Source: an uncultured Spirochaetaceae bacterium (GTDB lineage Bacteria > Spirochaetota > Spirochaetia > Sphaerochaetales > Sphaerochaetaceae). From it: a DNA stretch of 64,000 nucleotides. The notes beneath the pieces were generated by a model. The model saw only the letters and a program-made list of their open reading frames with translations. It had not been told where the DNA came from and searched no databases. Where the stretch lies: positions 1 through 64,000 of the forward strand of contig CALXKJ010000001.1 in NCBI GenBank assembly GCA_944388955.1, read 5' to 3'. The stretch's first letter is position 1. Each line of letters starts with the position of its first letter. The translations under genes and the position numbers were made by a program. Below, piece after piece: positions 25,633 to 49,680 of the stretch.

Positions 25633-25657
25633 GAAAAATGGTGCCACAAGGCACCAT
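25633..25657 (-). terminator. terminator of the repressor/cargo operon
   Basis: ATGGTGCC (25638-25645) pairs with GGCACCAT (25650-25657). On the minus strand it is followed by TTTTT. It lies 6 bp after the stop of the 50-aa gene and insulates the lysis operon from lysogenic transcription. Confidence 0.8.
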
Positions 25658-25662
25658 AAGAA

Positions 25663-25815
25663 CTATTTTGTTTTTTGTCGTTCTTTTTTCTGCTTATTAA
25701 TATTTTCAGCAATAACTATATTTTTTGTCTTAATAGTATAATTGTTACTTACAGGAACTGTTGTGCCATTATTCCCGCTAGGAGCACTATAGAAATATAT
25801 ACTTGAGTTTTTCAT
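25663..25815 (-). CDS. 50-aa basic protein coupled to the protease gene
   Basis: ATG 25813-25815 overlaps the TGA of the upstream gene (ATGA), with GGGAGGAAG upstream. The product starts MKNSSIYFYSAPSGN and ends in a Lys/Gln/Arg-rich tail. It is the last gene of the repressor transcript. No family was recognised; coupling and the ribosome site argue that it is real. Confidence 0.6.
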   Translation of the reverse strand: MKNSSIYFYSAPSGNNGTTVPVSNNYTIKTKNIVIAENINKQKKERQKTK

Positions 25816-26900
25816 TTTTCTTCCTCCCATCCTTTACTTCTTGTTGTTACATTGCCGTTTAATGCTAAATTGGGTTCTCTCCAAACAAGTACATCATTTA
25901 TCTGCTTTATATGATAGCATTTGGAACAACTTTCACATGATACGACAAGATTTTCTATTGTATGCGCTTTTCTAGGCTGCGGTATGATACCATTGAGTAT
26001 CGCTCCCATTCTCTGTTTTACCATTCCCTGATCTAGTCCAGGTGGAAATGTAACGACCTTAACATCATTTATTTCTTTTTGAACTTCCGGATCATTCATG
26101 GTTTCTGCTATTGGATCAAATGCGGTGCTGCAATGCATTTCTTCATTGAAATCTTCCCAGACCTTCCACATCAAATCTTCTAGTTCTTTTTGAGGAGCCT
26201 CTATAGGTAGACCGATTCTTTTTGCTTCTTTTCTGCTTACAGCATATCCGTGATGGTAATAAGATGAGCAAAGAGCATTGACAATAGCTTCAGCTTTGCT
26301 TTTGTCAGTTGTATGCATTTCCAATAATCTTCTTCCAAGGGAAAGTGTTAGTTGCTGACTTTTTTTAGAAAAACCGATACTGAGAGCACCCACTTCTTGT
26401 GTTAATGTATCAAGAGCTTTTGATATATTTACTTGACCGGTAATCCCTGCATCATCCTTCAGAAAATCGATATAATTTCGAACATCTTCAGAACTGAAAG
26501 CATGGCGTTCACCTCTTGGGTTTATTGTTGTAACTTGAGGATCCACGGGTCCCAAGTTCGAATAGGGATGCATAACTATAGAATCTGCACCAAGCGCCAA
26601 AACAGTAGCTGCACTGTAAGCAACATAGGGAACGAGCACATTTACTTTACAAAATCTCTCTTTGAGAATATTGATTATTCTTAGTGCAGCAATAGGATCA
26701 CCTCCATTGCTGATAATAAGAAAATCTATTTCATTATGCTCTTTGTCAATTTGTTCTATTTGCTTTATTATATAAGGGATAACATCAACTTGCATAGGTG
26801 CTGAAATATTAGGACGAATTGATGTTACATATACAAATAATGGCCGTCCTCTAAGAGCCTCTATTTGTGAATAGATATCCCTTCTTGTGTGGTAAGACAT
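25812..26900 (-). CDS. serine proteinase of the SDH/ClpP-like fold (SppA-related), lysogenic cargo
   Basis: 362 aa. The crotonase/ClpP-type core is visible: LIISNGGDPIAAL (oxyanion region, near 62), YVAYSAATVLALGAD (presumed nucleophile Ser near 95) and SNLGPVDPQ. This matches the serine dehydrogenase proteinase family. The C-terminus has a Cys cluster (CESCSKCYH). It lies in the repressor operon downstream of a DUF4145 gene, so it should be made in lysogens. A role in superinfection exclusion or defence is inferred. Base composition is lower in GC than the phage genes. Confidence 0.72.
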   Translation of the reverse strand: MSYHTRRDIYSQIEALRGRPLFVYVTSIRPNISAPMQVDVIPYIIKQIEQIDKEHNEIDFLIISNGGDPIAALRIINILKERFCKVNVLVPYVAYSAATVLALGADSIVMHPYSNLGPVDPQVTTINPRGERHAFSSEDVRNYIDFLKDDAGITGQVNISKALDTLTQEVGALSIGFSKKSQQLTLSLGRRLLEMHTTDKSKAEAIVNALCSSYYHHGYAVSRKEAKRIGLPIEAPQKELEDLMWKVWEDFNEEMHCSTAFDPIAETMNDPEVQKEINDVKVVTFPPGLDQGMVKQRMGAILNGIIPQPRKAHTIENLVVSCESCSKCYHIKQINDVLVWREPNLALNGNVTTRSKGWEEEK

Positions 26901-27039
26901 TCAGCCTCTCCGCTTTCATGAGTCTAAAAGGTTAATATATTAACCTCGTAGTCTAAGAATACCTGTGTTTGTCCTTGGAGACAAGATGCTTTACAATTTG
27001 TTTTTGCAGATCATTTTGAAGATAATAGGTGGCTAATAT

Positions 27040-27951
27040 TTATACAATTTCTGTATCGTCATCAGATTTTGATTCCTCAATGGTTGCCTTCTTGAGTTCT
27101 TTGCTTTTCTCCAAGGTGACTTGAGCTAGAGATGCAATATGTTCTTTTCTTTGCTTTCGCTGAGCTGGATAAACATAGAGTTCTGTAATTATCGCGTCCA
27201 GTTCTGCTATTATCTCGCCAATATCAGCAGATGTGATTCCGATATTCTCTTTCGAGGAATATATATGAATGGTCTTATTTCCTATTCCTCTTATTGCATC
27301 CATGACATCGATATTATCATATCGCATTTGCCCGTTCATATCTTCTCCAAGCCAATCAATCATGTTGTCTAAAGTAGGGAAGCCTTGTCTCCAATTTTTA
27401 GCGGTTACGACATCAGGCCATTTGTCAAGAATGATCCTCTCTAAGAATCTTCTGGCAAACATAGCTGAGGCTGTTGGCGAGAAATTTGATATTCTTTGCA
27501 GTTCGAGAAAGTCTTCAAGAACCTGAGGAGGAATGAATTCTTTATCATCATTATGCGGAAAAATAAGGGTGGGATTTTCTTCAATTGGTAAAAAACAACG
27601 CAAGGTTGAAGATAATATTATATTATCTAGGTTCTCATCATCTAAAATTGCATTGGCAACGGTATACCCATAAGCATCATATTTCTTTGTTAATAACAAT
27701 TCTTCGCAAAGGATTGTTGTTTTCCGGCAATGTGGATTACTGCATTCGATATATGCGATTATATAAAGGAAATTTTGATCTTTTTTATACTGAAAGTCAA
27801 AATCAGCTTTGTCGTTTGTAAGAGTTGAATTTTCCTCACAATAAGGACAATGAAAAGCCGACATTCTTTTTGGTGACTTTTCTAAGATCCTGTAAAGAAC
27901 AAGTAGTTTTGATTTAAAAGGAAAATCTTCTAATAATTTTGTTACATCCAT
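27040..27951 (-). CDS. zinc-ribbon DUF4145 protein, lysogenic cargo
   Basis: 303 aa from ATG 27949-27951, next to GAGTGAAGAG at the end of the repressor gene. The N-terminus has two Cys pairs (CPYC and CSNPHC) suited to zinc. The middle (SPTASAMFARRFLERIILDKWP through RGIGNKTIHIYSS) is the DUF4145 region often found fused or next to restriction and defence genes. The C-terminus is charged. Its partner gene downstream is the SDH-like proteinase, after a 139-bp gap without an evident promoter. Confidence 0.65.
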   Translation of the reverse strand: MDVTKLLEDFPFKSKLLVLYRILEKSPKRMSAFHCPYCEENSTLTNDKADFDFQYKKDQNFLYIIAYIECSNPHCRKTTILCEELLLTKKYDAYGYTVANAILDDENLDNIILSSTLRCFLPIEENPTLIFPHNDDKEFIPPQVLEDFLELQRISNFSPTASAMFARRFLERIILDKWPDVVTAKNWRQGFPTLDNMIDWLGEDMNGQMRYDNIDVMDAIRGIGNKTIHIYSSKENIGITSADIGEIIAELDAIITELYVYPAQRKQRKEHIASLAQVTLEKSKELKKATIEESKSDDDTEIV

Positions 27952-27958
27952 CTTCTCT

Positions 27959-28717
27959 TCACTCCACATGTATCCAGAACACGACCTTGCCGAGAACCTG
28001 AAGCCCTTCCTGATCCATCGGATAGGTCTTTGCCGGGTACTTCGGATTGTCGCTGATTATCGTGATCTCCCTCTTCAGCCTGTCGATTGATAGCCTCTTT
28101 ATATACACCTCATCGAGTATTGCCAGGGCATAGATCCCGTCCCCGCTCTCGAACTCCCTGACGTAAGCGACCGGCTCGCCGTCATGCAGCGTCGGCTCCA
28201 TGCTGTCGCCCTTGACGGTCGCGGCAATGAGCTTATCCCCGTCGAAGCGCCTTGCGATCTTCATCGGAACCGGAAGCAGCTCGCCCGTGAAGCTCTCATC
28301 GGAATCCCAGTCCCAGCCTCTTCCGGCGGAGAGTTTCAAATTTGTCATTGGAAGATATGCTGTTATATCGTCAGAAATTGGAGTTGGATTAATTTCATCT
28401 CCATCTTCAGGGTTCCAATATCTATGAATTATACGTTTGTTTTTACTGTCATATGCTTCGTCAAGCACAAGAGGAGGTACCCAATTTTCATCTTTTGGTT
28501 TCTCGGGTCGGCCAATGTACATAGGCCCTTCTCCTGTCAATAACCAATTTATGCTATATCCCATATCATACAATTTTATCTTAATGGCATCAGGTATAGC
28601 TGCTTTACCACTTTCATAATTGGCATATGTGGTTTGAGGAATACCCAAAAACGCACCAAATCGACTTTGTGATAAGCCGAGATTGCTTCGTATTTCTTTA
28701 AGGCGTTCAGCTTGCAT
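27959..28717 (-). CDS. prophage repressor (HTH-XRE + S24 peptidase)
   Basis: 252 aa from ATG 28715-28717 (a GTG two codons earlier is possible). The N-terminal HTH includes LGLSQSRFGAFLGIPQTTYANYESG. The C-terminal LexA/CI-type S24 domain has the nucleophile in DSMEPTLHDG and the Lys in LDEVYIKRL. It should hold the lysogenic state and be cleaved on the SOS response. The S24 half is almost identical to the repressor at 48427-49104, while the DNA-binding half is different. Confidence 0.92.
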   Translation of the reverse strand: MQAERLKEIRSNLGLSQSRFGAFLGIPQTTYANYESGKAAIPDAIKIKLYDMGYSINWLLTGEGPMYIGRPEKPKDENWVPPLVLDEAYDSKNKRIIHRYWNPEDGDEINPTPISDDITAYLPMTNLKLSAGRGWDWDSDESFTGELLPVPMKIARRFDGDKLIAATVKGDSMEPTLHDGEPVAYVREFESGDGIYALAILDEVYIKRLSIDRLKREITIISDNPKYPAKTYPMDQEGLQVLGKVVFWIHVE

Positions 28718-28728
28718 TTTCACCTACC

Positions 28729-30792: not shown

Positions 30793-31059
30793 ATGCTCGG
30801 AGCTACAAGGGATTACGCCATAAGGCCGGGGACTATGGTCCTGGAGAAGAGGGTGCGGCGGGCATCCGCGGATGTGCGGCATCTTGCCTCATTCATACCT
30901 GTATATCCGAAGGAGATAGGGCAGGCAGAGCTCGCGAGGAAGGCGGGGGTGACAGAGAGAAGGCTCAGGTGCCTCATCCCGGCAGTGAGCGATTCCTATC
31001 TCCTCTGCGAGGATGACGGAAGGTATTCACTCCTGAGGAGGGGCCGCCGTGTGGATTGA
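30793..31059 (+). CDS. 88-aa winged-helix early protein
   Basis: MLGATRDYAIRPGTM... with a helix-turn-helix in GQAELARKAGVTERRLRCLI and a wing (LLCEDDGRYSLL). It overlaps the transposase start by 11 bp. DNA binding is inferred; no named family. Confidence 0.6.
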   Translation: MLGATRDYAIRPGTMVLEKRVRRASADVRHLASFIPVYPKEIGQAELARKAGVTERRLRCLIPAVSDSYLLCEDDGRYSLLRRGRRVD

Positions 31060-33157
31060 TGTCAGGGAGCTGTCAGATGCTGTCGGTGTCACTTCGAGGG
31101 CAGTGCAGCTGAAGATACAGAAAGGCGAGCTCGTCGCAAGGAGGAAGGACGGAAGGAGCTATGAGGTGGATTCGGACTCCGTCCCTCCTGAATGGAGGCC
31201 GCTTGTCGGGAAGCTGCATCCTGCCGCAAGGCCGGCTGCGGCTCCAGCCCTATCGGCATCCGCGGAATCCGCGCTCGGAAGGAAGCTGTCCGAGAAGGAG
31301 ATGAGGAGGCCTGAGATAGCGCATTATGCGGAGAGTCTCTCGGAGGTTCCGGAATCGATGAGGGTGTCTCTGACGGCGGGGTATTTCGGGATTTCCGAGT
31401 CCACCGTGAGAAGGTGCATCCGAAGCATCTCCGGCTTCGGCATCATCTCCGGCGAAAGGCGCCCGGTGGAGCCAAGGGCATGGGAGCCGGAGGCCATAGC
31501 ATTCCTTCGCTCATATTACCTCCAGCTCATGAAGGAGAGGAACATAGACAGCAAGGAAGCTGCATGGAAGGCGGTGAGGAGCGAGGCGCAGAAGCGGAAC
31601 TGGAGGATAGGCTCGCGCTCTTCGGCGTTCAGGATGCTGAAGGATATCCCGGGGATAATCACCGGCTATGCCACGGGCGGCAGCAGGGCGCTCGACAACT
31701 TCTTCTATATAAAGCGCGACTGGGGCTCTCTCGAGCCGGCGGCAGTCCTTATCGGGGACCAGCATATCGCGGACTTCTGGGTCGTCGATGACAGGGATGC
31801 GGAGAATCCTTATTACTTCAGGCCCACGTTCTATGTATGGGAGGATGCGGCAACGAGATGCATCGCAGGGCTCGCGGTCGATGAGGGCTACAGTTCCGAG
31901 ACCGTGCTGAACGCGCTCTACATGGCGATAAGCCGCTTCGGCTTCTTCGGGGCGACATACAACGACAACGGCACATCGGAGTGCTCGAATGCCGTAGTGA
32001 CGGTCATAGACGAGATCATCAGGCTCTCGGGAGGAAGGAGCAGGATGCTCGATATCTCCGAGCTCTATAAGACATCCGATGGCCGTTATGCCGTCGAGGA
32101 CGCTGACGGGAATATCGTGGATATGGCCCCGGACGAGAAGGCGTGGAGGAACAGGCATCGGAGGATATACGCACAGGTGAAGAACGCGAAGGCGAAGCCT
32201 ATCGAGAGGCTCTTCTCGACCCTTGAGATGAAGATGGCTGAGCGCGGCATCCCCGGCCATGTCGTTACTCCGGGATGCCCTGCAGACCAGGAAGAGAAGG
32301 AATCGATGGTCCTTGAGAGGCAGAAGAGGAACGGCGAGATACTCACGCTGGAGGAGTTCGTAAGGGAGATGATAGCCACGATCTCCGAGTATGAATCCAC
32401 CAGGCATTCGTCGCTCGGGATGTCACCTCTGGAGAAGGTGAACGAATGGATAGGGAAGGGCTGGAAGCCTGTCTATCCTGAGAGCCGCGCTGACCTTGAC
32501 TTCATATTCCTCACGAGGAAGAAGGCGAGGATAAGGAAGGGACGCGTGACGGTAGATGGCGTTGATTTCATAGGCGAGGACCTGAGGAATGAGAACGGCC
32601 AGCTGCTCGATGTGGGGCTGGTCCTCCACGAGGGCGAGTCCGTTGAGGTCAGATACAGTGCTGTCGACATGTCCCGGGCCTATGCGGTCTTCCCGGATGC
32701 TGCGGCAGGAAGCAGGATAAGGGCCCTGAGGGCTGTTGAGGCGATAGACATGCTCGATGAGAAGAAGCTCTCGGAGGCTATCAGCTGGAAGCGCAGATGC
32801 ATGCGCACGGTGAAGGAGAGCTTTGCAGCACTGTCGTCTCCGTACTGCTTCAGGGATGATGGGAAGAAGGAGCTTACCGAGGTCGAGAAGGCAGACAGGG
32901 CGCTTGAAGAGGCTGCTGAGGATAAGGAGGGAACCGCAGAGCCGGAGCCATGCCCGAGGGCTCCGAGGATAAGGCCGGCGCGTCCGCTCTTCAGCTCATC
33001 ATTCGAGCGCTTCAGATGGTGCTGCGACATGATAATCAGCGATTTCGGGCTTGATGAGAATGACAGGGATTTCTGCGCCAGGTACAGGCTCGGCGAGGAA
33101 TACCAGGAGAACGAGGAATACTGGGAGGCATATATGAAGGCAGGAGGTGCTGTATGA
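31049..33157 (+). CDS. MuA-like transposase
   Basis: 702 aa from GTG 31049-31051, preceded by GAGGAGGGG. An N-terminal MerR-like HTH (VRELSDAVGVTSRAVQLKIQ) and DNA-binding domains precede an integrase core with D237 (GDQHIADFW), D306 (YNDNGTSE) and E386 (KPIERLFSTLE). A Mu-type C-terminal beta-barrel and a tail likely contacting the B protein follow. It drives insertion and replicative transposition using the end repeats at 453-496 and 36742-36804. Start and end overlap neighbours. Confidence 0.93.
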   Translation: MWIDVRELSDAVGVTSRAVQLKIQKGELVARRKDGRSYEVDSDSVPPEWRPLVGKLHPAARPAAAPALSASAESALGRKLSEKEMRRPEIAHYAESLSEVPESMRVSLTAGYFGISESTVRRCIRSISGFGIISGERRPVEPRAWEPEAIAFLRSYYLQLMKERNIDSKEAAWKAVRSEAQKRNWRIGSRSSAFRMLKDIPGIITGYATGGSRALDNFFYIKRDWGSLEPAAVLIGDQHIADFWVVDDRDAENPYYFRPTFYVWEDAATRCIAGLAVDEGYSSETVLNALYMAISRFGFFGATYNDNGTSECSNAVVTVIDEIIRLSGGRSRMLDISELYKTSDGRYAVEDADGNIVDMAPDEKAWRNRHRRIYAQVKNAKAKPIERLFSTLEMKMAERGIPGHVVTPGCPADQEEKESMVLERQKRNGEILTLEEFVREMIATISEYESTRHSSLGMSPLEKVNEWIGKGWKPVYPESRADLDFIFLTRKKARIRKGRVTVDGVDFIGEDLRNENGQLLDVGLVLHEGESVEVRYSAVDMSRAYAVFPDAAAGSRIRALRAVEAIDMLDEKKLSEAISWKRRCMRTVKESFAALSSPYCFRDDGKKELTEVEKADRALEEAAEDKEGTAEPEPCPRAPRIRPARPLFSSSFERFRWCCDMIISDFGLDENDRDFCARYRLGEEYQENEEYWEAYMKAGGAV

Positions 33158-34068
33158 ATATGGATCTCAATCAGCTTATGAGGATCACAGGGCTGACGCA
33201 GACGGATATCAGCAACAAGATGGGGTGGTCAAGAACCCAGGTGTCGCTGATTGCGTCAGGGAAGTACGAGAACTGGCAGGGAAAGGTCGCTGAGGTGTAC
33301 AGATACCTTTCGGCCAATGGCTACATCCCCGGCGAGTATGCCGAGGAGGGGGAGTCTCCGGCGGTATCGATAAGCATCGACACGGGCGCCATAATCAGGA
33401 CGGACAACTACAATTCGGTGTTCAGCCTTGCTGATGGGCTTATCGCTCCTGAGTCCCTTCTGAATGCATCCATCGGCATGGTTCTGGGGAAGGCCGGATA
33501 CGGCAAGACGACTGCCGTGAAGCGCTATGCGGTAGAGCATATGGATGCCGTCTATGTCCTCTATATGGGATTTGCCAGGACATCGCTCTTCAGGCGCATT
33601 GCGGAGGAGATGATTGGGCGCTCAGTGGGGACGTATTACGGGAATATCAGGCTCATAGAGGAGGCAACGTCCGTATGCAGGAAGCTCATCATCATCGATG
33701 AGGCCGATAGGGTCCCGCTTCCCATCCTTGAGGACCTCAGGACGCTCAATGAGAATGCGGGTGTCCCGCTTCTCCTTGTCGGAGAGGAAAGCCTTGCCTC
33801 CACCGTAAGGAAGGCCGACAGGATTGAGTCGAGAATCAGGAAGCCCGTTATCGCGTTCAAACCGATAGACACTGCTACTGTTATCGCTCTCTACAAGAAG
33901 GCCTGTGGCCTTTCAATTGATGTGGATATTGCGAAGAAGCTTATCTCCATGTGCGGGCGTGATTTCCGCGTCGCTGTGAACGATATGCAGCATATCGTCT
34001 CGATTATGAACCAGAACGGTGTTCCCGAGATTACGAAGGAGGTCATCGATGCCGCTAGGCGCAGCTGA
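33154..34068 (+). CDS. MuB-like AAA+ target-selection ATPase
   Basis: 304 aa. The N-terminal HTH (LTQTDISNKMGWSRTQVSLI) is followed by an AAA+ core with Walker A GKAGYGKTT, Walker B LIIIDEADR and a sensor region LLLVGEESL. This is the standard MuB plan: it activates the transposase and chooses target DNA. ATGA overlap with the transposase gene. Confidence 0.92.
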   Translation: MNMDLNQLMRITGLTQTDISNKMGWSRTQVSLIASGKYENWQGKVAEVYRYLSANGYIPGEYAEEGESPAVSISIDTGAIIRTDNYNSVFSLADGLIAPESLLNASIGMVLGKAGYGKTTAVKRYAVEHMDAVYVLYMGFARTSLFRRIAEEMIGRSVGTYYGNIRLIEEATSVCRKLIIIDEADRVPLPILEDLRTLNENAGVPLLLVGEESLASTVRKADRIESRIRKPVIAFKPIDTATVIALYKKACGLSIDVDIAKKLISMCGRDFRVAVNDMQHIVSIMNQNGVPEITKEVIDAARRS

Positions 34069-37566: not shown

Positions 37567-40500
37567 ATGAGCTTTAGCACGATAATCAATAAGTACAGAA
37601 CCCTGTCATTCAGCAAGGCTGATCAGGGTAACCGCTTTGAACGCCTTATGAAGGCTTTTCTTGTCACTGCTCCTATATATAAAGGCGATAGAATACAGGA
37701 TGTATGGCTTTGGAGCGAATTCCCTTCAAAGGGTGATTTTGGTACAGGTCATGACACAGGCATTGATCTTGTAGCGAGGACTGAATCAAGCGAGTACTGG
37801 GCGATACAGTGCAAATGCTATGGTGAAAATACTCAGATAGATAAATCCGCTGTAGATACATTTATCACGACATCCGCAAGGTCATTCAATGATGTGAATG
37901 AATATGGGAAGACTGTTCGTTTCTCAAGAAGAATCTGGTTTGATACATCAGGTAAGGGATTCTCCCAGCATGCCGAGGATTCAATCAAGAATCAGAATCC
38001 TCCTGTCATGCGTATGGGACTGTATGATCTCGCTGCTGCTGATGTCGATTGGGATAAGCTTGATGAAGGATTGTTCGGAGCAGATGCTGAGTCTGCAAAG
38101 TATTCTCCAAGACCGCATCAGCAGAAAGCAATTGATCTAACGCATGAGTATTTCAAGAACCATGACAGAGGCAAGCTCATCATGGCCTGTGGAACAGGTA
38201 AGACTTATACTTCTCTGAAGATAGCAGAGAAAGAAACATCATCTAATTTTACCCCCCCCCAGATACTTTTTCTAGCTCCGTCAATTGCTCTTGTAGGGCA
38301 GACTCTAAAGGAATGGTCAGCTCAGGCAGAGAAGCCGATACATGGCATTTGTATATGTTCTGATCCAAAGGTATCTCAGAAGGTATCGGATGAAGATGAA
38401 ATCGGAGAATCAGTAGTTGATCTCGCTCTTCCTGCTTCGACATCCTTCAATGAGATTGAGAATCAGATCAGACAGGCACGGTTCAATCAGAAACAGGATG
38501 GAGGCATGCTTGTTGTCTTCTCGACATATCAATCGATAGATGTAATCCATGAAGTGCAACATAGATTCTATGATGGACTTGTTTTTGATCTCTGTGTATG
38601 TGATGAAGCGCATAGGACAACAGGAGTAACAAGAAAGGATGAAGATGCATCTGCCTTTGTGAAGGTACATGCTGCAGAGTTCATACGATCAAAGAAACGC
38701 TTGTATATGACAGCTACACCGAGATTGTATAGTGCGGAAAATCAGAAGAAAGCAGCAGAAAGCGAAGCTGTCGTATGGTCTATGGATGATCCTGCCACAT
38801 ATGGAGAGGAAATCTACAGAATTGGATTTGGTGAAGCTGTAAAGCTCGGATTGCTCTCGGACTATAAGGTACTTGTCCTGACTCTAAATGAAGACGAGAT
38901 GTCTACAGCTCTTCAGAATGAGATAGCACAGGATGATTCAGAGATACCGACAGATGATTCATTGAAGCTGATTGGCTGCATAAATGCATTGTCCAAGATA
39001 ACGAAAGATACAGCTCTGCTGAATGAGGTTGATCCTGGACTGATGCATAATGCAATAGCTTTCTGTCAGAACATAAAGATATCAAAGAAGACAGTTAAGA
39101 TGATGGAAACATGCCGTGATGCCTATTATAGGACATTGAATGAAGAAGAACGGTCGAGGATAGTTTCTATCAATGCAGATCATGTCGATGGCAGCATGGG
39201 TGCGACAGAGCGATCAAAGAAGCTACAGTGGCTGAAGGATGTCGATAGGGAATCCAGCCAGTGCAATGTGTTGATGAACGTCCGCTGTCTTTCTGAAGGT
39301 GTTGATGTTCCGTCTCTGGATGCTGTTTTGTTCCTATCGGCAAGAAACAGCCAGATTGATGTAGTTCAGTCTGTTGGCCGTGTCATGAGGAAAGCAGAAG
39401 GAAAGAGATATGGATATATCATCATACCCGTTGTTATTCCTTCTGATGTCGAGCCGGAGAAAGCTCTTGATGACAATAAGAGGTTTGCTGTTGTATGGAC
39501 GGTTCTTCAAGCTCTTAGAGCGCATGATGACAGGTTCAATGCGATAGTCAATAAGATAGAACTTAATAAGAAACGGCCTACACAAATCCTTGTTGGTGGA
39601 GTTGCTTCTATTCGTGAAGAGGACTCTGGTGACAATGGAATGGAAGATGCGTTCAGGAATAAGGAAGCTAAGCAGCTGATGCTCCAGTTCGGAGAGATTC
39701 AGAACGCAGTCTATTCAAAGCTTGTAAAGAAGGTTGGTGATAGGCGTTATTGGGAGCAGTGGGCAGCTGATGTTGCCCAGATAGCTGAGCGTCATATAAC
39801 ACATATCAAGAAGCTGATATCTGTTGAAGGCAGTCAGGCACAGAAAGCCTTTGATAGGTATCTGAAAGGTCTTCGGAAGAATATTAATCCATCGGTTACG
39901 GAAGATGATGCTGTTGAGATGCTTGCTCAGCACTTCATAACACAGCCTGTATTCGAAGCATTGTTTGAAGGTTATTCATTTGTACAGAACAATGCGATGT
40001 CGAAGTCGATGCAGGGTATGGTGAAGATCCTCAATGAACAGACTCCGAAGGAAGACAATGAGAAGCTTGAACGATTCTATGAGTCCGTAAGGGAGCGAGC
40101 CAAGCATATTGATAATGCCGAGGCAAAGCAGAAAGTTATTGTTGAGCTTTATGATAAGTTCTTCAAGACAGCTTTTCCAAAGACTGTTGAGAAGCTTGGC
40201 ATTGTCTATACTCCTGTCGAGGTAGTGGACTTTATCATCAATAGCGTTGAAGATGTGATGCAAAAGGAATTTGGACGATCGCTCTCTGATGAGAATGTAC
40301 ATATCCTTGATCCATTCACAGGAACAGGCACATTTATTGTCCGACTTCTCCAGAGTGGGATAATAAAGCCAGAGGACATGGCAAGGAAGTATAAGAATGA
40401 GCTTCATGCCTGTGAGATAGTCCTTCTTGCTTACTACATAGCTTCCATCAATATTGAGAATACCTATCATGATTTCATCGCAGAGCAGATCAGAAAGAAG

Positions 40501-42531
40501 AATCAGCCTGAAGAGAAAGAAATAGATGATTATGGCTATGAGGTTCAGAATGCTGCTTATGATGAGGCTTCTTATGAAGCTAAGGTAGCCTATGAGCCAT
40601 TTGAAGGAATCTGTCTGACTGATACCTTCCAGATGGGAGAAGATAATAATGAGCTTCTTGAAGAGGTATTCCCTCAAAACTCAAAGAGAGTGAATAAACT
40701 CAAGAAGACGCCAATAACAGTTATTATCGGAAATCCTCCGTATTCAATAGGACAGAAATCTGTTTCTGATAATGCAGAAAATGAACATTATCTGAATCTA
40801 GAAAATCAGATTGAAAAGCAATATGTGAAGGAGTCAACAGCAAATTTGCATAAGGCTGTGTATGATTCATACATCAAAGCATTCCGATGGAGTACTGATA
40901 GGATTGGAGATAATAACGGAATAATCGGTTTTGTTTCCAATGCTGGCTGGCTTGATGGCAATGCAATGGATGGCATGAGGAAATGCTTTGAAAGAGAGTT
41001 CTCGAATATCCATGTATTCAGCCTGCGTGGTAATTGCAGAACTTCTGGTGAGCTTAGGAGAAAAGAAGGGGGTAATGTTTTTGGACTTGGCAGCAGAACA
41101 CCAATTGCTATAACAATTCTTGTTAAAAGAAAGGGCTTTAATGGCAAAGCCAAAATAATGTACAAGGCTGTTGAGGATTATCTTACAAGAGAAGATAAGT
41201 TGAAGCTCTGTGCTGAATACCGTTCTGTTCTTGATAAGAAGTTCAAGACAACCCTATTGTCTCCTGATGAATATGGTGGATGGATTCGAAAGAAAAAGGA
41301 GAAATTTGAGATATTTATTCCACTGCAGCCAGAAAAGAAAGGAATAGGCAATAATTCTTTCTTTGATATGATTTCTTTAGGTATCAGTTCTAATCGAGAT
41401 GCTTGGGTATATAATAGCTCAATCGAAGCCTTGACAAATAATATGCAGAAGACAATTGCATATTACAATGATTTATGCGAGTTGTGGTCATCTGAGCATA
41501 ATGGAACATTCGATCATTTTATAGAAAATAAAAAGGATAGAACAAATATAGCTTGGACAGATACTTTGACTAGAGATGCAACAGCAGGAAGAAAATATGA
41601 ATTTGATTCATCTTGTATCGTTTGTAGTTCATACCGTCCATTCTTTTATCAGAACTTTTATTATTCAAAGCAATGGAATCATAGACAGTATACGCAACAA
41701 AAAATATATCCATCTGCGATTAGAAAGAAAGATAATCTTGTAGTGTGCGTTAGTGGAATTGGAGGATCAAAGCCTTTCTGTAGCCATATTTCTGATTTCA
41801 TCCCATCGTTAGATTACTTAGAAAAAACTCAGTGTTTTCCTTTATACTGGTATGAAGAAATCAAGCTTGATCAACATGACTTATTTTCAGGAGAAACTTC
41901 TCAGTATATAAAACATGACGGCATAACAGATTTTATCCTTAATCAGGCTCAGCAGAAATATGGACCGAGAGTAACTAAGGAAGACATATTCTACTATGTC
42001 TATGGCATACTTCATTCAAAGAGCTATATTGAGAAGTTTGCAGATGATCTCAAGATGCAGCTTCCTCGGCTTCCTCTTGTAACAGAACCCCAGAAGTTCT
42101 GGGATTTCAGCAAGGCAGGAAGAGAGCTTGCTGAACTTCATCTGAACTATGAAAAAGTTCCTGCATATCCAGATGCAATCATTGAAGGAGATAGAGGAAA
42201 TTATACAGTTGTTCAGATGAAACATCCGAAGAAAGGACGAGAAGAACAGCTCGATACCATAATTTACAATAGCGATATTGTAGTCAGAAATATTCCTTTA
42301 AAAGCGTATGAGTTCGTGGTTAACGGAAAGAGTGCAATAGATTGGATTATTGAACGGTATGTGGATAAAACTGATTCTAAAACAGGTATCAGGAATAATG
42401 CTAATGATTGGGGAATAGAACATGGTAACCCGAGGTATATTCTCGATCTGCTGCTTAGTGTTATCAATGTCAGCTGCCAGACTGTTGATATTGTTAACAA
42501 TCTTCCTGATGTTGATTGGGATAAGGAATAA
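37567..42531 (+). CDS. type ISP restriction-modification enzyme (nuclease + helicase + N6-adenine methylase + specificity)
   Basis: 1654 aa, close to the LlaGI/LlaBIII family. In order: a Mrr-like PD-(D/E)XK nuclease (TGIDLVAR ... QCKCY, about 60-88); superfamily 2 helicase with Walker A CGTGKT (about 209), DEAH (about 346) and TATPRLY; a coupler; a gamma-type methylase with FTGTGTF (about 917) and NPPY (about 1056); and a C-terminal recognition domain. One protein therefore methylates and cuts. GGAG lies upstream of the ATG. A C9 tract at 38252-38260 in the helicase could switch it on and off by slippage; the present length is in frame. Base composition is lower in GC than the prophage. Confidence 0.93.
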   Translation: MSFSTIINKYRTLSFSKADQGNRFERLMKAFLVTAPIYKGDRIQDVWLWSEFPSKGDFGTGHDTGIDLVARTESSEYWAIQCKCYGENTQIDKSAVDTFITTSARSFNDVNEYGKTVRFSRRIWFDTSGKGFSQHAEDSIKNQNPPVMRMGLYDLAAADVDWDKLDEGLFGADAESAKYSPRPHQQKAIDLTHEYFKNHDRGKLIMACGTGKTYTSLKIAEKETSSNFTPPQILFLAPSIALVGQTLKEWSAQAEKPIHGICICSDPKVSQKVSDEDEIGESVVDLALPASTSFNEIENQIRQARFNQKQDGGMLVVFSTYQSIDVIHEVQHRFYDGLVFDLCVCDEAHRTTGVTRKDEDASAFVKVHAAEFIRSKKRLYMTATPRLYSAENQKKAAESEAVVWSMDDPATYGEEIYRIGFGEAVKLGLLSDYKVLVLTLNEDEMSTALQNEIAQDDSEIPTDDSLKLIGCINALSKITKDTALLNEVDPGLMHNAIAFCQNIKISKKTVKMMETCRDAYYRTLNEEERSRIVSINADHVDGSMGATERSKKLQWLKDVDRESSQCNVLMNVRCLSEGVDVPSLDAVLFLSARNSQIDVVQSVGRVMRKAEGKRYGYIIIPVVIPSDVEPEKALDDNKRFAVVWTVLQALRAHDDRFNAIVNKIELNKKRPTQILVGGVASIREEDSGDNGMEDAFRNKEAKQLMLQFGEIQNAVYSKLVKKVGDRRYWEQWAADVAQIAERHITHIKKLISVEGSQAQKAFDRYLKGLRKNINPSVTEDDAVEMLAQHFITQPVFEALFEGYSFVQNNAMSKSMQGMVKILNEQTPKEDNEKLERFYESVRERAKHIDNAEAKQKVIVELYDKFFKTAFPKTVEKLGIVYTPVEVVDFIINSVEDVMQKEFGRSLSDENVHILDPFTGTGTFIVRLLQSGIIKPEDMARKYKNELHACEIVLLAYYIASINIENTYHDFIAEQIRKKNQPEEKEIDDYGYEVQNAAYDEASYEAKVAYEPFEGICLTDTFQMGEDNNELLEEVFPQNSKRVNKLKKTPITVIIGNPPYSIGQKSVSDNAENEHYLNLENQIEKQYVKESTANLHKAVYDSYIKAFRWSTDRIGDNNGIIGFVSNAGWLDGNAMDGMRKCFEREFSNIHVFSLRGNCRTSGELRRKEGGNVFGLGSRTPIAITILVKRKGFNGKAKIMYKAVEDYLTREDKLKLCAEYRSVLDKKFKTTLLSPDEYGGWIRKKKEKFEIFIPLQPEKKGIGNNSFFDMISLGISSNRDAWVYNSSIEALTNNMQKTIAYYNDLCELWSSEHNGTFDHFIENKKDRTNIAWTDTLTRDATAGRKYEFDSSCIVCSSYRPFFYQNFYYSKQWNHRQYTQQKIYPSAIRKKDNLVVCVSGIGGSKPFCSHISDFIPSLDYLEKTQCFPLYWYEEIKLDQHDLFSGETSQYIKHDGITDFILNQAQQKYGPRVTKEDIFYYVYGILHSKSYIEKFADDLKMQLPRLPLVTEPQKFWDFSKAGRELAELHLNYEKVPAYPDAIIEGDRGNYTVVQMKHPKKGREEQLDTIIYNSDIVVRNIPLKAYEFVVNGKSAIDWIIERYVDKTDSKTGIRNNANDWGIEHGNPRYILDLLLSVINVSCQTVDIVNNLPDVDWDKE
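38252..38260 (+). repeat. C9 homopolymer inside the type ISP coding sequence
   Basis: Nine C bases read ACC CCC CCC CAG (Thr-Pro-Pro-Gln) about 20 codons after Walker A. Gain or loss of one base would truncate the enzyme to about 240 residues, before the methylase. Confidence 0.85.
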
Positions 42532-43183: not shown

Positions 43184-43273
43184 ATGAGGAATATCGATTG
43201 GAAGCTTGTTCTTACAGCGCTAAATACGGTTATGTCCGCTGTGATAATGATCGCTGTGCTGGTGAAGTTCTGA
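43184..43273 (+). CDS. 29-aa membrane peptide, module copy 1
   Basis: ATG 43184-43186 with GAGGAGAAAG upstream. A polar start (MRNIDWK) precedes one hydrophobic span (LNTVMSAVIMIAVLV) and a terminal KF. Three similar peptides lie at 45429, 45595 and 45742. This one is followed 14 bp later by a ribbon-helix-helix-like gene. Toxin-like or signalling roles are possible; none is shown. Confidence 0.5.
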   Translation: MRNIDWKLVLTALNTVMSAVIMIAVLVKF

Positions 43274-43287
43274 TAGGAGGCTGCTGG

Positions 43288-43482
43288 ATGGAAGAGCAGG
43301 AGAAGAAGAGCTGGGGAGGCGCCAGGAAAGGCGCAGGAAGGCCGAAGGGCATCAGGAAGCCATATGAGCATATATGTGCTTCAGTTCCAGCTGAATATGT
43401 GGACAAGCTCAAGGCCTTAGCCGCAAGGGAAGGGCTGACGGTCGGGAAGCTTTTCCAGATAATGATTGATGAGAGGGCGTGA
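43288..43482 (+). CDS. ribbon-helix-helix-like protein, copy 1 (WGGARKGAGRPKG motif)
   Basis: 64 aa from ATG 43288, with AGGAGG upstream; the longer frame from 43198 is out of context. The N-terminus has the WGGARKGAGRPKG motif, and the rest (VPAEYVDKLKALAAREGLTVGKLFQIMIDER) fits a ribbon-helix-helix fold. Paralogous to 45854-46048, and its 3' end recurs at 49565-49680. Probably a DNA-binding regulator of the adjoining small peptide. Confidence 0.65.
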   Translation: MEEQEKKSWGGARKGAGRPKGIRKPYEHICASVPAEYVDKLKALAAREGLTVGKLFQIMIDERA

Positions 43483-43496
43483 TGAGCGCCCTCTAT

Positions 43497-44360
43497 TTAA
43501 TCAAGATCGAGGAAGCCCTGACCTTGTTCCTTCTCTATCTGCTCCTTCGTCTTCGGAGGATAGAATACCCCGATGATGGAAAAAGGCTGGCCAAAGCCCT
43601 TCATGTGGTCTTCTTTTCTTGTCCCGAGGAAGAAGTAAACATCATTCTTATCAATGAATGACATATATTTTGCGACGGTATCAGCCTTTGCCTTCTCGTG
43701 ACTCCCGCCTTTCTGCCGTATCTTCCTATACAGCATGTAAGCTTCCCAGTCCAGCACTGATAATGCATGCACTTTGCCTGTAGAGTCCTGAAATCTGTAT
43801 CTGAGGTTTATACGAGGAGGCTCGGCCTGAATGAAATCCCTATCATCGTCTGAGAAATTGAGATCGGGCTGGTAATTCATCAGTATTTCCTTCTGTTTTG
43901 ATAGGTTTTCCTGTATGTCTTTTTCCCTGATATCGGAAGCAGTGCAGCCGATGATCCTTGTCGGCTTGAATACAGCCAAGGATGTCCTTATCGGTCTGCA
44001 GCCAGCCTCTTCCAGAAGCTTGTTGAAATCCGTATAGATCTTCTGCCCGTTATCAAGGCATATCTTCTTTCTTTCATCCCAGTTGCTGATCACATCTGAG
44101 ATTATCTCAATCGAATCATGGTTGCATTTCCTTGATTCCGGCCTGATGTCGCCACTGGGTGGGAATGTGTCAAATCTTACCCATTGATATTTTCTATAGC
44201 TCTGGTTCTTTGATAATTTGCGGAGCGGAACAGGATATACTCTTATCCAGTTCCCGTTTCTGTCAAAGCCCGCTGTGCATGATGTCTCTATATAGCTCTT
44301 GGATGGAGTGGGTGCTGTTATCGCTGTTATGAATATATCCATCGGTACAGGATCGTTCAT
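43497..44360 (-). CDS. partner protein of the DUF488 gene, unknown function
   Basis: 287 aa. The region DIFITAITAPTPSKSYIETSC and GNWIRVYPVPLRKLSKNQSYRKYQWV suggests a conserved two-gene partner of DUF488 proteins in accessory islands. Its start overlaps the DUF488 stop by 4 bp. An RNA- or nucleotide-related role is possible; no catalytic motif is certain. Confidence 0.55.
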   Translation of the reverse strand: MNDPVPMDIFITAITAPTPSKSYIETSCTAGFDRNGNWIRVYPVPLRKLSKNQSYRKYQWVRFDTFPPSGDIRPESRKCNHDSIEIISDVISNWDERKKICLDNGQKIYTDFNKLLEEAGCRPIRTSLAVFKPTRIIGCTASDIREKDIQENLSKQKEILMNYQPDLNFSDDDRDFIQAEPPRINLRYRFQDSTGKVHALSVLDWEAYMLYRKIRQKGGSHEKAKADTVAKYMSFIDKNDVYFFLGTRKEDHMKGFGQPFSIIGVFYPPKTKEQIEKEQGQGFLDLD

Positions 44361-45256
44361 ATATTTATCACTCCATGGTCAAGTGTTGTGTGCCTGCTGC
44401 AGAATGCCGCAAGCCTTGACCTGTGGCAATCCTGAGGATTCCTCTCATAGCAGAGGAATGCCACGCTGCTGCTAGCAAGCAGGTCTCCTATCTTATAAGC
44501 GAATGATACCTGCCATGGAAGCGTATGCTCTTCATACCAGTCGAAAAGCTCATTCCTTCTTCCTTCCGGTAGAAGCTCGTTTCTCTTTTCCGATTCGATG
44601 CCGACTTCAGGGCAGTGCATATACCTGATTCCGGCTTCATCCATTGCTCTGGCCAGATTCGATTTCGAGAATTCCCTCCTCATGCTGAAGGCGTTCTTCC
44701 TGACATCGACAAGAACCTTTATATTCCTGCACATGAGATTCCTTATTACATCGTCTATAGACCGGCCTTCATAGCCTATGGTGTATATCGTCCTGGGGTA
44801 GGCTTCAATCTTCCTCTTTATGTTCACAAGCCCTTGATAGAATGAATCCGTAAGATCCAGAGTGTTTATGATCTCGCTTCTGATGGCATAGAACGGCTTC
44901 AGTTCGTAGCTGATCTCAGCAAGCTCCTTTTCGGGAAGATTCCCGTATCTTCTGTATGTTTCTCTTATCTGACACTCCGTCGCATAATCGACAGCAAAGG
45001 AATCATGGGCAATGCCACTGGCTAATGAATACATGCCATCCGAACTGTCGAGGAATCCTGAAGACGCTAGTGCATGATAGTCATTGCTGAGGGTGAGAGA
45101 ATAGCATCCTCTGATATTCGGGAAGAACTGATATGGTGCTTTCGATTGGTCATCAAGCGACTGCGTGTAAAGAAAGAGTGTCTTCTGTATCTGCATGGCG
45201 GATGCAGTACCAAGAAGCATGATGAAATTGAGTGCTACCTTTCTCCTGTTATACAT
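44357..45256 (-). CDS. DUF488 domain protein
   Basis: 299 aa from ATG 45254-45256 (a TTG start at 45274 is possible). A helical N-terminal region (about 1-150) is followed by the DUF488 domain: TIYTIGYEGRSIDDVI, VLVDVRKNAFSMRREF and the C-terminal LCYERNPQDCHRSRLA with a conserved Cys-His. It forms an operon with the gene at 43497. The pair lies among restriction and prophage genes, so a defence role is plausible but unproven. Confidence 0.75.
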   Translation of the reverse strand: MYNRRKVALNFIMLLGTASAMQIQKTLFLYTQSLDDQSKAPYQFFPNIRGCYSLTLSNDYHALASSGFLDSSDGMYSLASGIAHDSFAVDYATECQIRETYRRYGNLPEKELAEISYELKPFYAIRSEIINTLDLTDSFYQGLVNIKRKIEAYPRTIYTIGYEGRSIDDVIRNLMCRNIKVLVDVRKNAFSMRREFSKSNLARAMDEAGIRYMHCPEVGIESEKRNELLPEGRRNELFDWYEEHTLPWQVSFAYKIGDLLASSSVAFLCYERNPQDCHRSRLAAFCSRHTTLDHGVINI

Positions 45257-45428
45257 ACTCAAGCCCTGTATCAATTGTATATGAGCAACGCCCTGACGTA
45301 TACGCTATATATAGTATTTCAAGTATGTTTTTCATACTGATATCAAGCAAAATTATCACTTGATTTTGAATAAACCATTGAATAAAAATCAAGAAAATGC
45401 TAATATATGGATGTAAGGAGGTGATGGC

Positions 45429-45741: not shown

Positions 45742-45822
45742 ATGAAAGATAAAATCGCAATCGCAACACTGGTTCTTCAGATAGTGAACTGCATTCTCCT
45801 GATTGCCGTCATCGCCAGATGA
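45742..45822 (+). CDS. 26-aa membrane peptide, module copy 4
   Basis: ATG 45742-45744 with AAGGAG 5 bases upstream. A charged start (MKDK) precedes a span (ATLVLQIVNCILLIAVI) and a terminal AR. It is followed 31 bp later by the second ribbon-helix-helix-like gene, repeating the order seen at 43184-43482. Confidence 0.5.
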   Translation: MKDKIAIATLVLQIVNCILLIAVIAR

Positions 45823-45853
45823 ATGCGCAATGACCAAGGCAGGGAGGGTATTC

Positions 45854-46048
45854 ATGGAAGAGAACGAAAAGAAAGGCTGGGGAGGGGCAAGGAAGGGTGC
45901 AGGAAGGCCAAAGGGCATCAAGAAGCCGTATGCACCGCTATGCTGCTCCCTGCCGGTTGAGTACGTGGGAAGGCTGAAGGCGATGGCTGAGAGGGAAGGG
46001 CTATCAATGAGCCGCATGATCCAGAAGATGATTGACGAGAGGGCGTGA
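45854..46048 (+). CDS. ribbon-helix-helix-like protein, copy 2
   Basis: 64 aa from ATG 45854. About 70 percent identical by eye to 43288-43482, with the same WGGARKGAGRPKG motif and a VEYVGRLKAMAEREGLS helix region. It ends IDERA, like copy 1. Probable DNA-binding partner of the tiny peptides upstream. Confidence 0.65.
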   Translation: MEENEKKGWGGARKGAGRPKGIKKPYAPLCCSLPVEYVGRLKAMAEREGLSMSRMIQKMIDERA

Positions 46049-46100: not shown

Positions 46101-47348
46101 TTAAAATCTTATTATTATTTCACTTGATGATGGAGTCCCCGCAAAACATATCATAATTGCTGTGATTGCTGGTAAGAAAGATGCTACCTGTGCTACTACA
46201 AGAAGTATGCTATTTCTCTTGGATGATTTTGCAAGAGAATTGAATTCTTTCAGGAATTCAGGAATATCCTTATTGTTGTCCTTATCTGTTTCAGCTTTGT
46301 GAAGTTCGTCGATTTCATGTTTTATTCTAACTTGTAAAGCTTTTAATTGTTTCCTGTCTGAAGCAAGTAAGGCAAAACATATTATTCCTGCTATTAATAG
46401 AGATATAACGATCAGAAAATTTATTTCATTGTTATTTGAAGAATAGACTTCTGACATAGCAAAGAACATGGAGAGGAATACAAGCATCTCGGCCTTGAGA
46501 TTCTGCAAAGAGCTTCTGATTTCATTGCCGAAGGCTTTTATTTTTTTGTTATATGAGGCTCTTAGGTTCTGGCTTTCAAATGGATTCAGATATTGGCTTT
46601 CACATAGTCTAAAACTGCTTATGATTGTACCTATGGAATTCATGAATGCGATAATGCGTTCAAGAGGAGAAGCCGTTGTCGGTACATGATTGTTTATCTC
46701 CGATCTGAGCAATTGCTTTAGCCGTTCATCTTTTCCATTTGTTATTTCAAGAAATGTATCAAGACCACATCTTACATCGCAAAGGTCATTCCCTTTGAGC
46801 CCGTTGGTTGAATACTCAAGCAGTTTTGCTACACCTCCTATAATTATGCACGTGTTTCCTGATTTGTAATCTGCCAGATGTTTGAATGCATGAAGTAATT
46901 GATAGCAAGAATCAGCATTCTTTACAGAGTCAAAGTTATCTATAGCCTCCTGACTGGAATAGACTCTCCCTTCGATTATATACAAGCCGTTGCCTAATAG
47001 TGGTCTGTCTTCTCTTATCGATACAGCCATTCGATCAACGAGAGCCGAACTATTTCTAAATGAAATACAATTAAAAGGGTGCAAATCCAGTGCAAATGTG
47101 ACATTCCTAGCATCATGGGGTATCTCAGAAATCTTATCGTAAACTGTACCATCAGCCTCTGGATTGCATTCATCCGGAAATAGATCCGGATACTCTGACA
47201 TGAGAGTTTTGATTCTGTCACATGTTATCGTAATTGCGATTGAGCTTGTAGTATGTTGCTCCGCATTTGGTTCTGACAATGTTGACGAAAGGAGATTTTC
47301 CAGAATTCTTTTATGCTCATTCATTTTCCTGTCGTCTGAAATTTTCAT
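46101..47348 (-). CDS. membrane protein, lysogenic cargo of the second prophage remnant
   Basis: 415 aa from ATG 47346-47348, with GAGGG upstream. A soluble N-terminal domain (about 1-285) is followed by two adjacent spans (about 288-335) and a C-terminal span (about 380-405). It overlaps the NdpA-like gene by 32 bp. A cytoplasmic sensor plus membrane segments is a common plan for abortive defence proteins; the role here is inferred. Confidence 0.6.
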   Translation of the reverse strand: MKISDDRKMNEHKRILENLLSSTLSEPNAEQHTTSSIAITITCDRIKTLMSEYPDLFPDECNPEADGTVYDKISEIPHDARNVTFALDLHPFNCISFRNSSALVDRMAVSIREDRPLLGNGLYIIEGRVYSSQEAIDNFDSVKNADSCYQLLHAFKHLADYKSGNTCIIIGGVAKLLEYSTNGLKGNDLCDVRCGLDTFLEITNGKDERLKQLLRSEINNHVPTTASPLERIIAFMNSIGTIISSFRLCESQYLNPFESQNLRASYNKKIKAFGNEIRSSLQNLKAEMLVFLSMFFAMSEVYSSNNNEINFLIVISLLIAGIICFALLASDRKQLKALQVRIKHEIDELHKAETDKDNNKDIPEFLKEFNSLAKSSKRNSILLVVAQVASFLPAITAIMICFAGTPSSSEIIIRF

Positions 47349-48396
47349 ATTCCCTCGCTATGGCACCTTCAGGATCCAATATGATAAGCCGTCCATCCTC
47401 ATAAGTGACAGTACCATCATCAATCCTATCCTGGCTAGCTTCTATCTTTATTCCATTCTTATTATAAACTAACTTTTCCCAGCGTTTCATGGCCGTTTGA
47501 TTTGGTTTGAAAGATGCAGAGATCAGTAGATTGTTTTCATCTGCAATTTTGTAAAATTCGGCTTGGTCATTGGGATTAGGAAACATTATATTGAGCAAAT
47601 GCAATACAATGACTTCTTGCTTATTCTCATGCATATGAGAAGCTGCTTTGTCTCGTATATTTTCCCACTCGTTCTGGGTAAGGTTTAGCTTATCTTTTGC
47701 AAGTAGTTCTGCTGCTGTCATAAAATCAGATGTAGCTTTTGATGATCTGGATATTTTTTCACAGCCTATAAAACCTTCTCGATAATATTCTGACAGATCT
47801 TTTGTGCCACAGATAAAACTTATGTAGTTTGCAGGATCACCTTCTTTAGGATTTAACCATCTATCTAAGTCTATTATGGCTGCAAGTGTCATTTGTTTGA
47901 GATTCAGTGCCAAGGAAGTTTTGAGTTTGTGTCCTTCTACATAGCTGCTGAATTCCTGCCCTAGAAGAGTTATGCCAAACATTGGTTTGTTGTTTTGGTC
48001 AATGTAATCAAAGACAATCATATGATCGCCAGTAGAAAGTCTTGTCGTTTCAAGGCATCTTATGTATCTCTCAGCGATTTCAATTGACAGATTAAGAAAA
48101 TCTTTGTCAGTCTTTTTCCCTGCTTCGTATTCGATAATCATATCCTTTATAGGTCGTATGTCATACCTATATTTACTCTCAAGTTCTTCTAAGAACGAAG
48201 CATAAGCAATCGAACGATTTATATCAGCTCTTGTTTTGCAGAAACCTTCAATAAAATTTGTAACACCTTCGGATGTCGGGTTATCCAGATCTTTTGCAAG
48301 ATCTTTTTTCTTTACCTTTCCTTTGTTCTGTTCTTTTTCAATGAAATGAATGGCTATATGTTGAATCCTTGGTTCAACTTCATTGTTTTTATTCAT
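47317..48396 (-). CDS. NdpA/YejK-like nucleoid-associated protein, lysogenic cargo
   Basis: 359 aa. The N-terminal IQHIAIHFIEKE, the central DHMIVFDYIDQNNKPMFGI with LKQMTLAAIIDLDRWL, and the FICGTKDLSEYYREGFIGC region match the 37-kDa nucleoid-associated family. Placed right behind the second repressor and coupled to a membrane protein, it probably serves a phage-linked or defence function rather than general chromatin structure. Confidence 0.75.
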   Translation of the reverse strand: MNKNNEVEPRIQHIAIHFIEKEQNKGKVKKKDLAKDLDNPTSEGVTNFIEGFCKTRADINRSIAYASFLEELESKYRYDIRPIKDMIIEYEAGKKTDKDFLNLSIEIAERYIRCLETTRLSTGDHMIVFDYIDQNNKPMFGITLLGQEFSSYVEGHKLKTSLALNLKQMTLAAIIDLDRWLNPKEGDPANYISFICGTKDLSEYYREGFIGCEKISRSSKATSDFMTAAELLAKDKLNLTQNEWENIRDKAASHMHENKQEVIVLHLLNIMFPNPNDQAEFYKIADENNLLISASFKPNQTAMKRWEKLVYNKNGIKIEASQDRIDDGTVTYEDGRLIILDPEGAIAREYENFRRQENE

Positions 48397-49217: not shown

Positions 49218-49564
49218 ATGGGTGAATTGAAGGCAATTGAGAAGAATGAGAAGAGCGAAGCCCTTACTATGCAAGCTTCATATAAGAACCTTGTTGAATA
49301 CGGAAAGGTCCTCATTGGACGGATTGAGCGCAATCAGCTCGAGTTTGCGAGGCTCTGCTATAGGGCTAATCAGGAATCGGCGGTCAGGGGAAAAGAAATG
49401 ACTTAGTTTTCGCTAACTTGTCCACTGGTGGACAAGTTGAGAATATCCATACTTTTCGGAGTTTCTGCTCAGATATCGATATTTCTAAGAGCTATGGATA
49501 CAAAGTTATCGCCGCCTACAACGCCGCTGAGGACCGTCTCTACACGAAGGAAGAGATGAAGGTG
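49218..49564 (+). pseudogene. frameshifted, truncated copy of the first early gene
   Basis: Starts identically to 28848-29663 (MGELKAIEKNEKSEAL). One base is missing near 49379, where RANQE diverges into a stop at 49404-49406. Homology resumes in another frame (STGGQVENIHTFRSFCSDI) and stops near 49563 after KEEMK. The sequence then switches to the tail of a ribbon-helix-helix gene. Confidence 0.85.
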
Positions 49565-49680
49565 CTCATATATGTGCTTCAGTTCCGGCTGAATATGTGG
49601 ACAAGCTGAAAGCCATTGCCGCAAGAGAAGGGCTGACAGTCGGGAAGCTGCTTCAGATTATGATTGATGAAAGGGCTTGA
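49565..49680 (+). pseudogene. 3' fragment of a ribbon-helix-helix gene fused to the early gene remnant
   Basis: Encodes HICASVPAEYVDKLKAIAAR and onward to IDERA, nearly identical to the end of 43288-43482. The junction at about 49563 lies inside both genes, showing a deletion or recombination that removed most of a prophage early region. Confidence 0.8.

Follow-up and report, generated by a model that had tools for sequence, protein, structure and literature searches.

The recurrent unit behind the repressor of a Mu-like prophage, which lies in the 64,000-nucleotide stretch of spirochaete DNA analysed here as a whole (the window), is an SDH-type serine proteinase gene together with a 50-codon gene that begins at the proteinase stop codon. 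We read the two as a mobile module whose most likely role is to guard the lysogen against other phages, and give this reading a probability of about one half. The original prediction, which had placed lysogenic cargo at this position and paired the proteinase with a DUF4145 protein, is thereby partly supported, as it was right about the place and wrong about the partners. If the module is protective, a ClpP-fold enzyme would join the effectors of bacterial immunity, and the slot between repressor and lysis genes of these spirochaete phages would be a place to find more systems.

The prophage encodes a MuA-type transposase (31049-33157) and a MuB-type ATPase (33154-34068) on the plus strand, and its terminase, portal, minor head, scaffold and major head genes lie on the minus strand, as do the repressor, the three cargo genes and the terminator. 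Leftward from the gene of the S24-type repressor (27959-28723; Pfam PF00717 (Peptidase_S24) and HTH_19, phrog_4 at 1.1e-43) follow a DUF4145-like open reading frame (27040-27969; PF13643 at 1.6e-4, just under the cut-off), the gene of the 362-residue SDH-type proteinase with its predicted ClpP fold (25812-26900; PF01972 at 7.9e-18), the 50-codon reading frame (25663-25815), an intrinsic terminator-like hairpin with an 8-bp stem, a 4-nucleotide loop and a T-run (25638-25657) and finally the holin gene. The ATG of the small gene overlaps the proteinase stop as ATGA and is preceded by GGAGG. Rightward of the early region of the prophage, the plus strand encodes at 37567-42531 a type ISP restriction-modification enzyme, large and single-chain (Type_ISP_C at 5.1e-105), with a GC content of 40.5%.

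In line with the original prediction, three genes and then a hairpin stand behind the repressor, and their composition is unlike that of phage genes: the DUF4145-like, proteinase and small genes have GC contents of 35.2, 37.4 and 27.5%, respectively, as against 52.3-58.1% in the nine phage genes measured. The repressor gene stands at 47.2% overall and at 38.8% in its first 110 codons. The further claim that the cargo is read on the repressor transcript is a matter of arrangement only, and the arrangement speaks for it in one part. The DUF4145-like gene, whose true start is probably the ATG at 27951, 8 nucleotides past the repressor stop, is tightly coupled, whereas the proteinase gene follows after a further 139 nucleotides (26901-27039, minus strand), which contain an 18-bp perfect palindrome (26929-26946). 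This distance and the palindrome suggest that the proteinase may have its own control. The palindrome lies 28 nucleotides ahead of the proteinase start, was equalled in 1 of 200 shuffles and is retained in a sister prophage; it is a possible operator. A general operator 5′ of the proteinase was rejected because the palindrome of the window did not turn up at the other 34 loci in a rough scan, in a few of which the start had been picked inside the gene.

The proteinase scores 64.9 bits with Pfam PF01972 (gathering cut-off 31.3) and 79.9 bits with the equivalog model NCBIfam NF047768 (Clp_like_SDH), well below the cut-off of 250. PHROG 11747, a family whose function is not known, matches it at 4e-41 and an E. 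coli-type relative at 7e-92. The AlphaFold model (pLDDT 76.4, low across much of residues 290-349) was aligned by VIA-align with PH1510 (3viv_A) at a Z-score of 13.2 and an rmsd of 3.7 over 182 residues, and with ClpP at a Z-score of about 13, the matches spanning 170-182 residues. Moreover, the model matches SppA, and its Foldseek matches include PDB 4kwb; identity to solved structures is 11-20% among the matches listed (PH1510, SppA, ClpP). As judged from this model, the proteinase has a ClpP/crotonase fold. In a profile alignment, the ClpP of the host matched with a probability of only 22% over 69 columns. The putative nucleophile is Ser96 in the motif YSAAT, and Ser96, Asp120 and His217 are invariant in all 30 aligned sequences. 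The C-terminal tail ends in KGW.

The small gene was followed through 47 proteinase loci, comprising 38 from a profile scan of viral contigs, three spirochaete loci and six others; a search of genome contigs with a single protein had given one locus. Because of some near-duplicates, such as the eight loci of the E. coli form, the 47 yield 39 distinct small proteins. At 45 loci a reading frame of at least 38 codons starts between about 40 nucleotides before and 30 nucleotides after the proteinase stop, and at the remaining two (L002 and L089) the small frame lies slightly further away. When an ATG start and a length of 38-90 residues were demanded, 39 of the 47 loci had such a frame, compared to 40 of 272 other long reading frames from the viral and the three spirochaete loci. 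Outside the overlap, pN/pS was 0.0-0.55 in 16 pairs, several of them with pS near saturation, which indicates that the frame is a real gene under purifying selection; the E. coli record inspected in RefSeq leaves it unannotated. The 39 proteins are rich in Ser (13.0%), Asn (9.7%) and Thr (9.3%). Two short motifs, picked after looking at these sequences, which are not independent of each other, occur in 28 and 11 of the 39 against shuffle means of 6.1 and 2.7, and the 50-residue protein of the window matches the second motif only. With all pairs included, the correlation between proteinase and partner was equalled in none of 999 permutations, as compared to 914 of 999 for distant pairs alone, and thus co-inheritance is visible in close relatives only. 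In addition, a chromosomal subfamily of the proteinase with an FHIR-type end, found mainly in one genus, does not consistently have the partner.

Comparison with the sister prophage (G018), located on contig L020 of an uncultured Spirochaetaceae, indicates how the genes have travelled. Over the block that runs from the 3′-end of the DUF4145-like gene to the terminator (25636-27060), the two prophages share 98.3% identity, with values of 97.1% for the intergenic region, 98.6% for the proteinase gene, 97.3% for the small gene and 100% for the terminator. The flanks are far more divergent, as the DUF4145 gene is 54.4% identical in its N-terminal part and 79.7% in the middle, the C-terminal part of the repressor 84.8% and the holin side past the terminator 80.3%; the longest match, block included, has a mean identity of 83.1% over 7786 columns. 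This contrast between block and flanks indicates that the proteinase and small genes moved as a unit. Correspondingly, the proteinases are 99% and the DUF4145 proteins 61% identical, and the identity of the block next to the divergence of the DUF4145 gene implies that the block moved independently of that gene. Both the repressor and the DUF4145-like gene are mosaics, about 50-54% identical to the sister contig in their 5′ parts and about 80-88% in their 3′ parts, which suggests domain swaps.

The early protein encoded next to the repressor was searched in 197 related genomes, 11 of which matched; the copy that the window genome has in addition, at 49218-49570, is broken. Intervals from nine of the other ten genomes, together with the main and remnant copies in the window, make up 11 slots, a small set of mutually related intervals in which small reading frames were scanned in part; G040 (contig edge) and G048 (a repressor relative without the early gene) stand outside it. 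The main slot of the window and that of the sister prophage hold the DUF4145, SDH proteinase and small genes, and that of G101 has genes for a 222-residue protein and for a distant SDH proteinase whose C-terminal part matches zinc ribbons, together with a 61-residue frame; the other eight slots are without any SDH gene. Matches to PADLOC models were obtained in four slots, namely PD-Lambda-5_A (9e-45) and PD-Lambda-5_B (3.1e-115) beside a DUF3800 protein in G054, a Beta protein corresponding to PD-Lambda-2_C (2.4e-35) and a cll match (7.2e-37) in G068, PDC-M11A (2e-69) in G051, and a Fic protein (Pfam Fic) with PDC-S04 (1.8e-13) in G110. The PDC models we take, going by the library name, to be candidates only. 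As a control, ten other genes of the window phage gave a single PADLOC match below 1e-10, MuB as TnsC (1.8e-11). The contents thus vary from slot to slot, with 4 of 11 matching known or candidate anti-phage models, and the view of these genes as lysogenic cargo in a variable position is supported. Since two slots (G046, G058) contain unrecognised genes only, the position does not serve defence alone.

The comparison slot of the remnant prophage lies behind a second repressor, also from this phage family (48427-49104, minus strand), and encodes a 359-residue NA37/NdpA-like protein (NA37 at 1.4e-26) and a 415-residue protein (46101-48396, minus strand), the pair having a weak KwaA match (0.003). 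As an NA37 protein is accompanied by a 405-residue protein in the slot of G025 (L038, 2536-4838), the pair recurs in two prophages and is a candidate cargo pair of its own. Similar short reading frames, both with GWGGARKGAGRPKG, are repeated around the remnant prophage at 43198-43482 and 45803-46048, and genes for a DUF488 protein and a 287-residue protein adjoin it in tandem (43497-45274, minus strand).

Beyond these slots, many phages carry the proteinase and small genes together, and a single restriction-modification locus contains them as well. This locus belongs to another spirochaete (G340), in which the pair stands between hsdS of a type I locus (hsdR-hsdM-hsdS) and an integrase-like gene, followed by the gene of an AAA protein with an AbiLi match (2e-53). 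On a Chlorohelix plasmid (L002) the proteinase is 44% identical at 99% coverage, and a PD-(D/E)XK and helicase protein is encoded after it. In E. coli, near-identical copies are present in 47 of 5426 complete genomes, and the module can therefore be tested in this host. The E. coli form, for example in NZ_CP081794.1 (4748-5743), has a partner of 59 residues. In the two records inspected the copies lie alone in lambdoid prophages, in antisense orientation, with Q on one side, the holin gene on the other and no defence genes nearby. The module of G071 lies on a short contig and has no recognisable phage gene as neighbour. SDH-type proteinase genes in L007 (1515-4792) and L019 adjoin ubiquitin-like conjugation genes, the annotated operon in L007 running from multiubiquitin through E2, ThiF and DUF6527 to the proteinase.

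Taken together, the defence-gene slot, the recurrence in phages and the restriction-modification locus make the module a good candidate for a new bacterial defence, and judging by its neighbours an anti-phage role is likely. At E-values up to 10, neither the proteinase nor the small protein matched any PADLOC family, so that the link to defence is one of company only; listings from an open-licence literature library likewise yielded no connection of SDH-type or ClpP-like proteinases to phage defence. In the mechanism that we favour, the small Ser/Thr/Asn-rich and probably disordered partner, translated from the proteinase stop codon, would restrain an active protease or serve as its bait. Infection would disturb the balance between the two, and the released proteinase would cleave a host or phage protein. 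A more ambitious version, which we put forward tentatively and hold to be rather doubtful, sees a widespread new two-gene system of immunity. A tiny disordered partner, encoded at the stop codon of a ClpP-fold proteinase that has no ATPase, would control the enzyme as a tethered inhibitor or bait, phage infection would remove this partner, and the freed protease would halt the infection. Temperate phages of various hosts, enterobacteria and spirochaetes among them, would carry such modules, the small gene having been missed by annotation. The findings point to a protease-based two-gene module in temperate phages, whose conserved partner gene is missing from the annotation of the E. coli record inspected.

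The same pair could be a toxin-antitoxin or addiction system that stabilises the prophage or element without a dedicated anti-phage role. Two genes with a translational overlap and no other constant partner would suit such a system, and so would the spread of the module on phages and other elements and an acetyltransferase-like neighbour noticed by eye in G048. However, the module occupies a slot in which anti-phage genes are carried, and it stands beside an hsd locus in G340, the larger gene comes first, and the conserved active-site residues are compatible with either reading; we consider an addiction pair unlikely. Quite unlikely, in our estimate, is a role in lysogeny itself, with the small protein as substrate or adaptor of a proteinase that would, for instance, cleave a regulator at induction. 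In several phages the module does have a repressor or antiterminator gene close by, SppA-type relatives process peptides, and 4kwb is among the structural matches, but the modules of G071 and G340 have no recognised phage genes beside them and any SDH gene is missing from 8 of the 11 related slots.

Improbable, too, is a single three-gene system of DUF4145 protein, proteinase and small accessory as initially proposed. Gene order is identical in the window and the sister prophage, yet the conserved block begins at the 3′-end of the DUF4145 gene and excludes its body, and the maps of 23 other module loci, inspected by eye, revealed no DUF4145-like neighbour. When the pair was sought beside other repressors, as the original prediction had advised, it was found in 2 of 11 slots, both of sister prophages, and the recurrent partner of the proteinase proved to be the 50-residue gene; the pair as a unit was therefore rejected. 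The DUF4145-like gene is read here as an independent piece of lysogenic cargo. Even its family name is borderline, with 22.1 bits for PF13643 in the window and 23.2 bits in the sister protein at a gathering cut-off of 23.1, and the predicted structure is poor (pLDDT 57.4). Three of 197 genomes, the window's own included, have a relative, one of these being weak; none was detected in viral contigs and the phage collection at the limits used, and one Acinetobacter plasmid carries a distant relative. A PD-T7-4 profile, which has no curated cut-off, matched the window protein over part of the profile (1.5e-4) and did not match the 61%-identical relative. That the proteinase is the head-maturation protease of the window phage, as weak profile matches might suggest, is hardly credible and was rejected, given 46.7 bits with NCBIfam NF045542 against a cut-off of 120, a composition and place of cargo type, and eight slots without an SDH gene, several of which have head genes behind them on the maps.

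As to known systems, excerpts from two papers (PMC3710099, PMC10799925) assign DUF4145 to the HEPN superfamily. With DUF4145/HEPN proteins, including BxaP, the window protein shares the borderline domain match, and it has the N-terminal zinc-ribbon cysteines CPxC...CxxxxC (C41, C44, C76 and C81), all kept in the sister protein. It departs from HEPN ribonucleases in lacking a strict Rx4-6H motif, as defined in the excerpt from PMC3710099, and has R227-x7-H235 in both sequences. Relatives of PD-Lambda-5, PD-Lambda-2/Beta and other prophage-borne defence systems fill the same slot in sister phages, the proteins of our module being unrelated to theirs. The PD systems were found by a selection, according to an excerpt of its publication (PMC9519451), and for the proteinase module we found no comparable published selection. 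With the SDH-type serine proteinases of PF01972, NF047768 and PHROG 11747, the window protein shares the fold, the Ser motif and a GPxDP motif, and it differs by its short GW tail and the overlapping small gene. PH1510 and SppA use a Ser-Lys dyad with a characteristic spacing, whereas the window family is without a conserved Lys at that spacing and has the invariant Asp120 and His217 instead.
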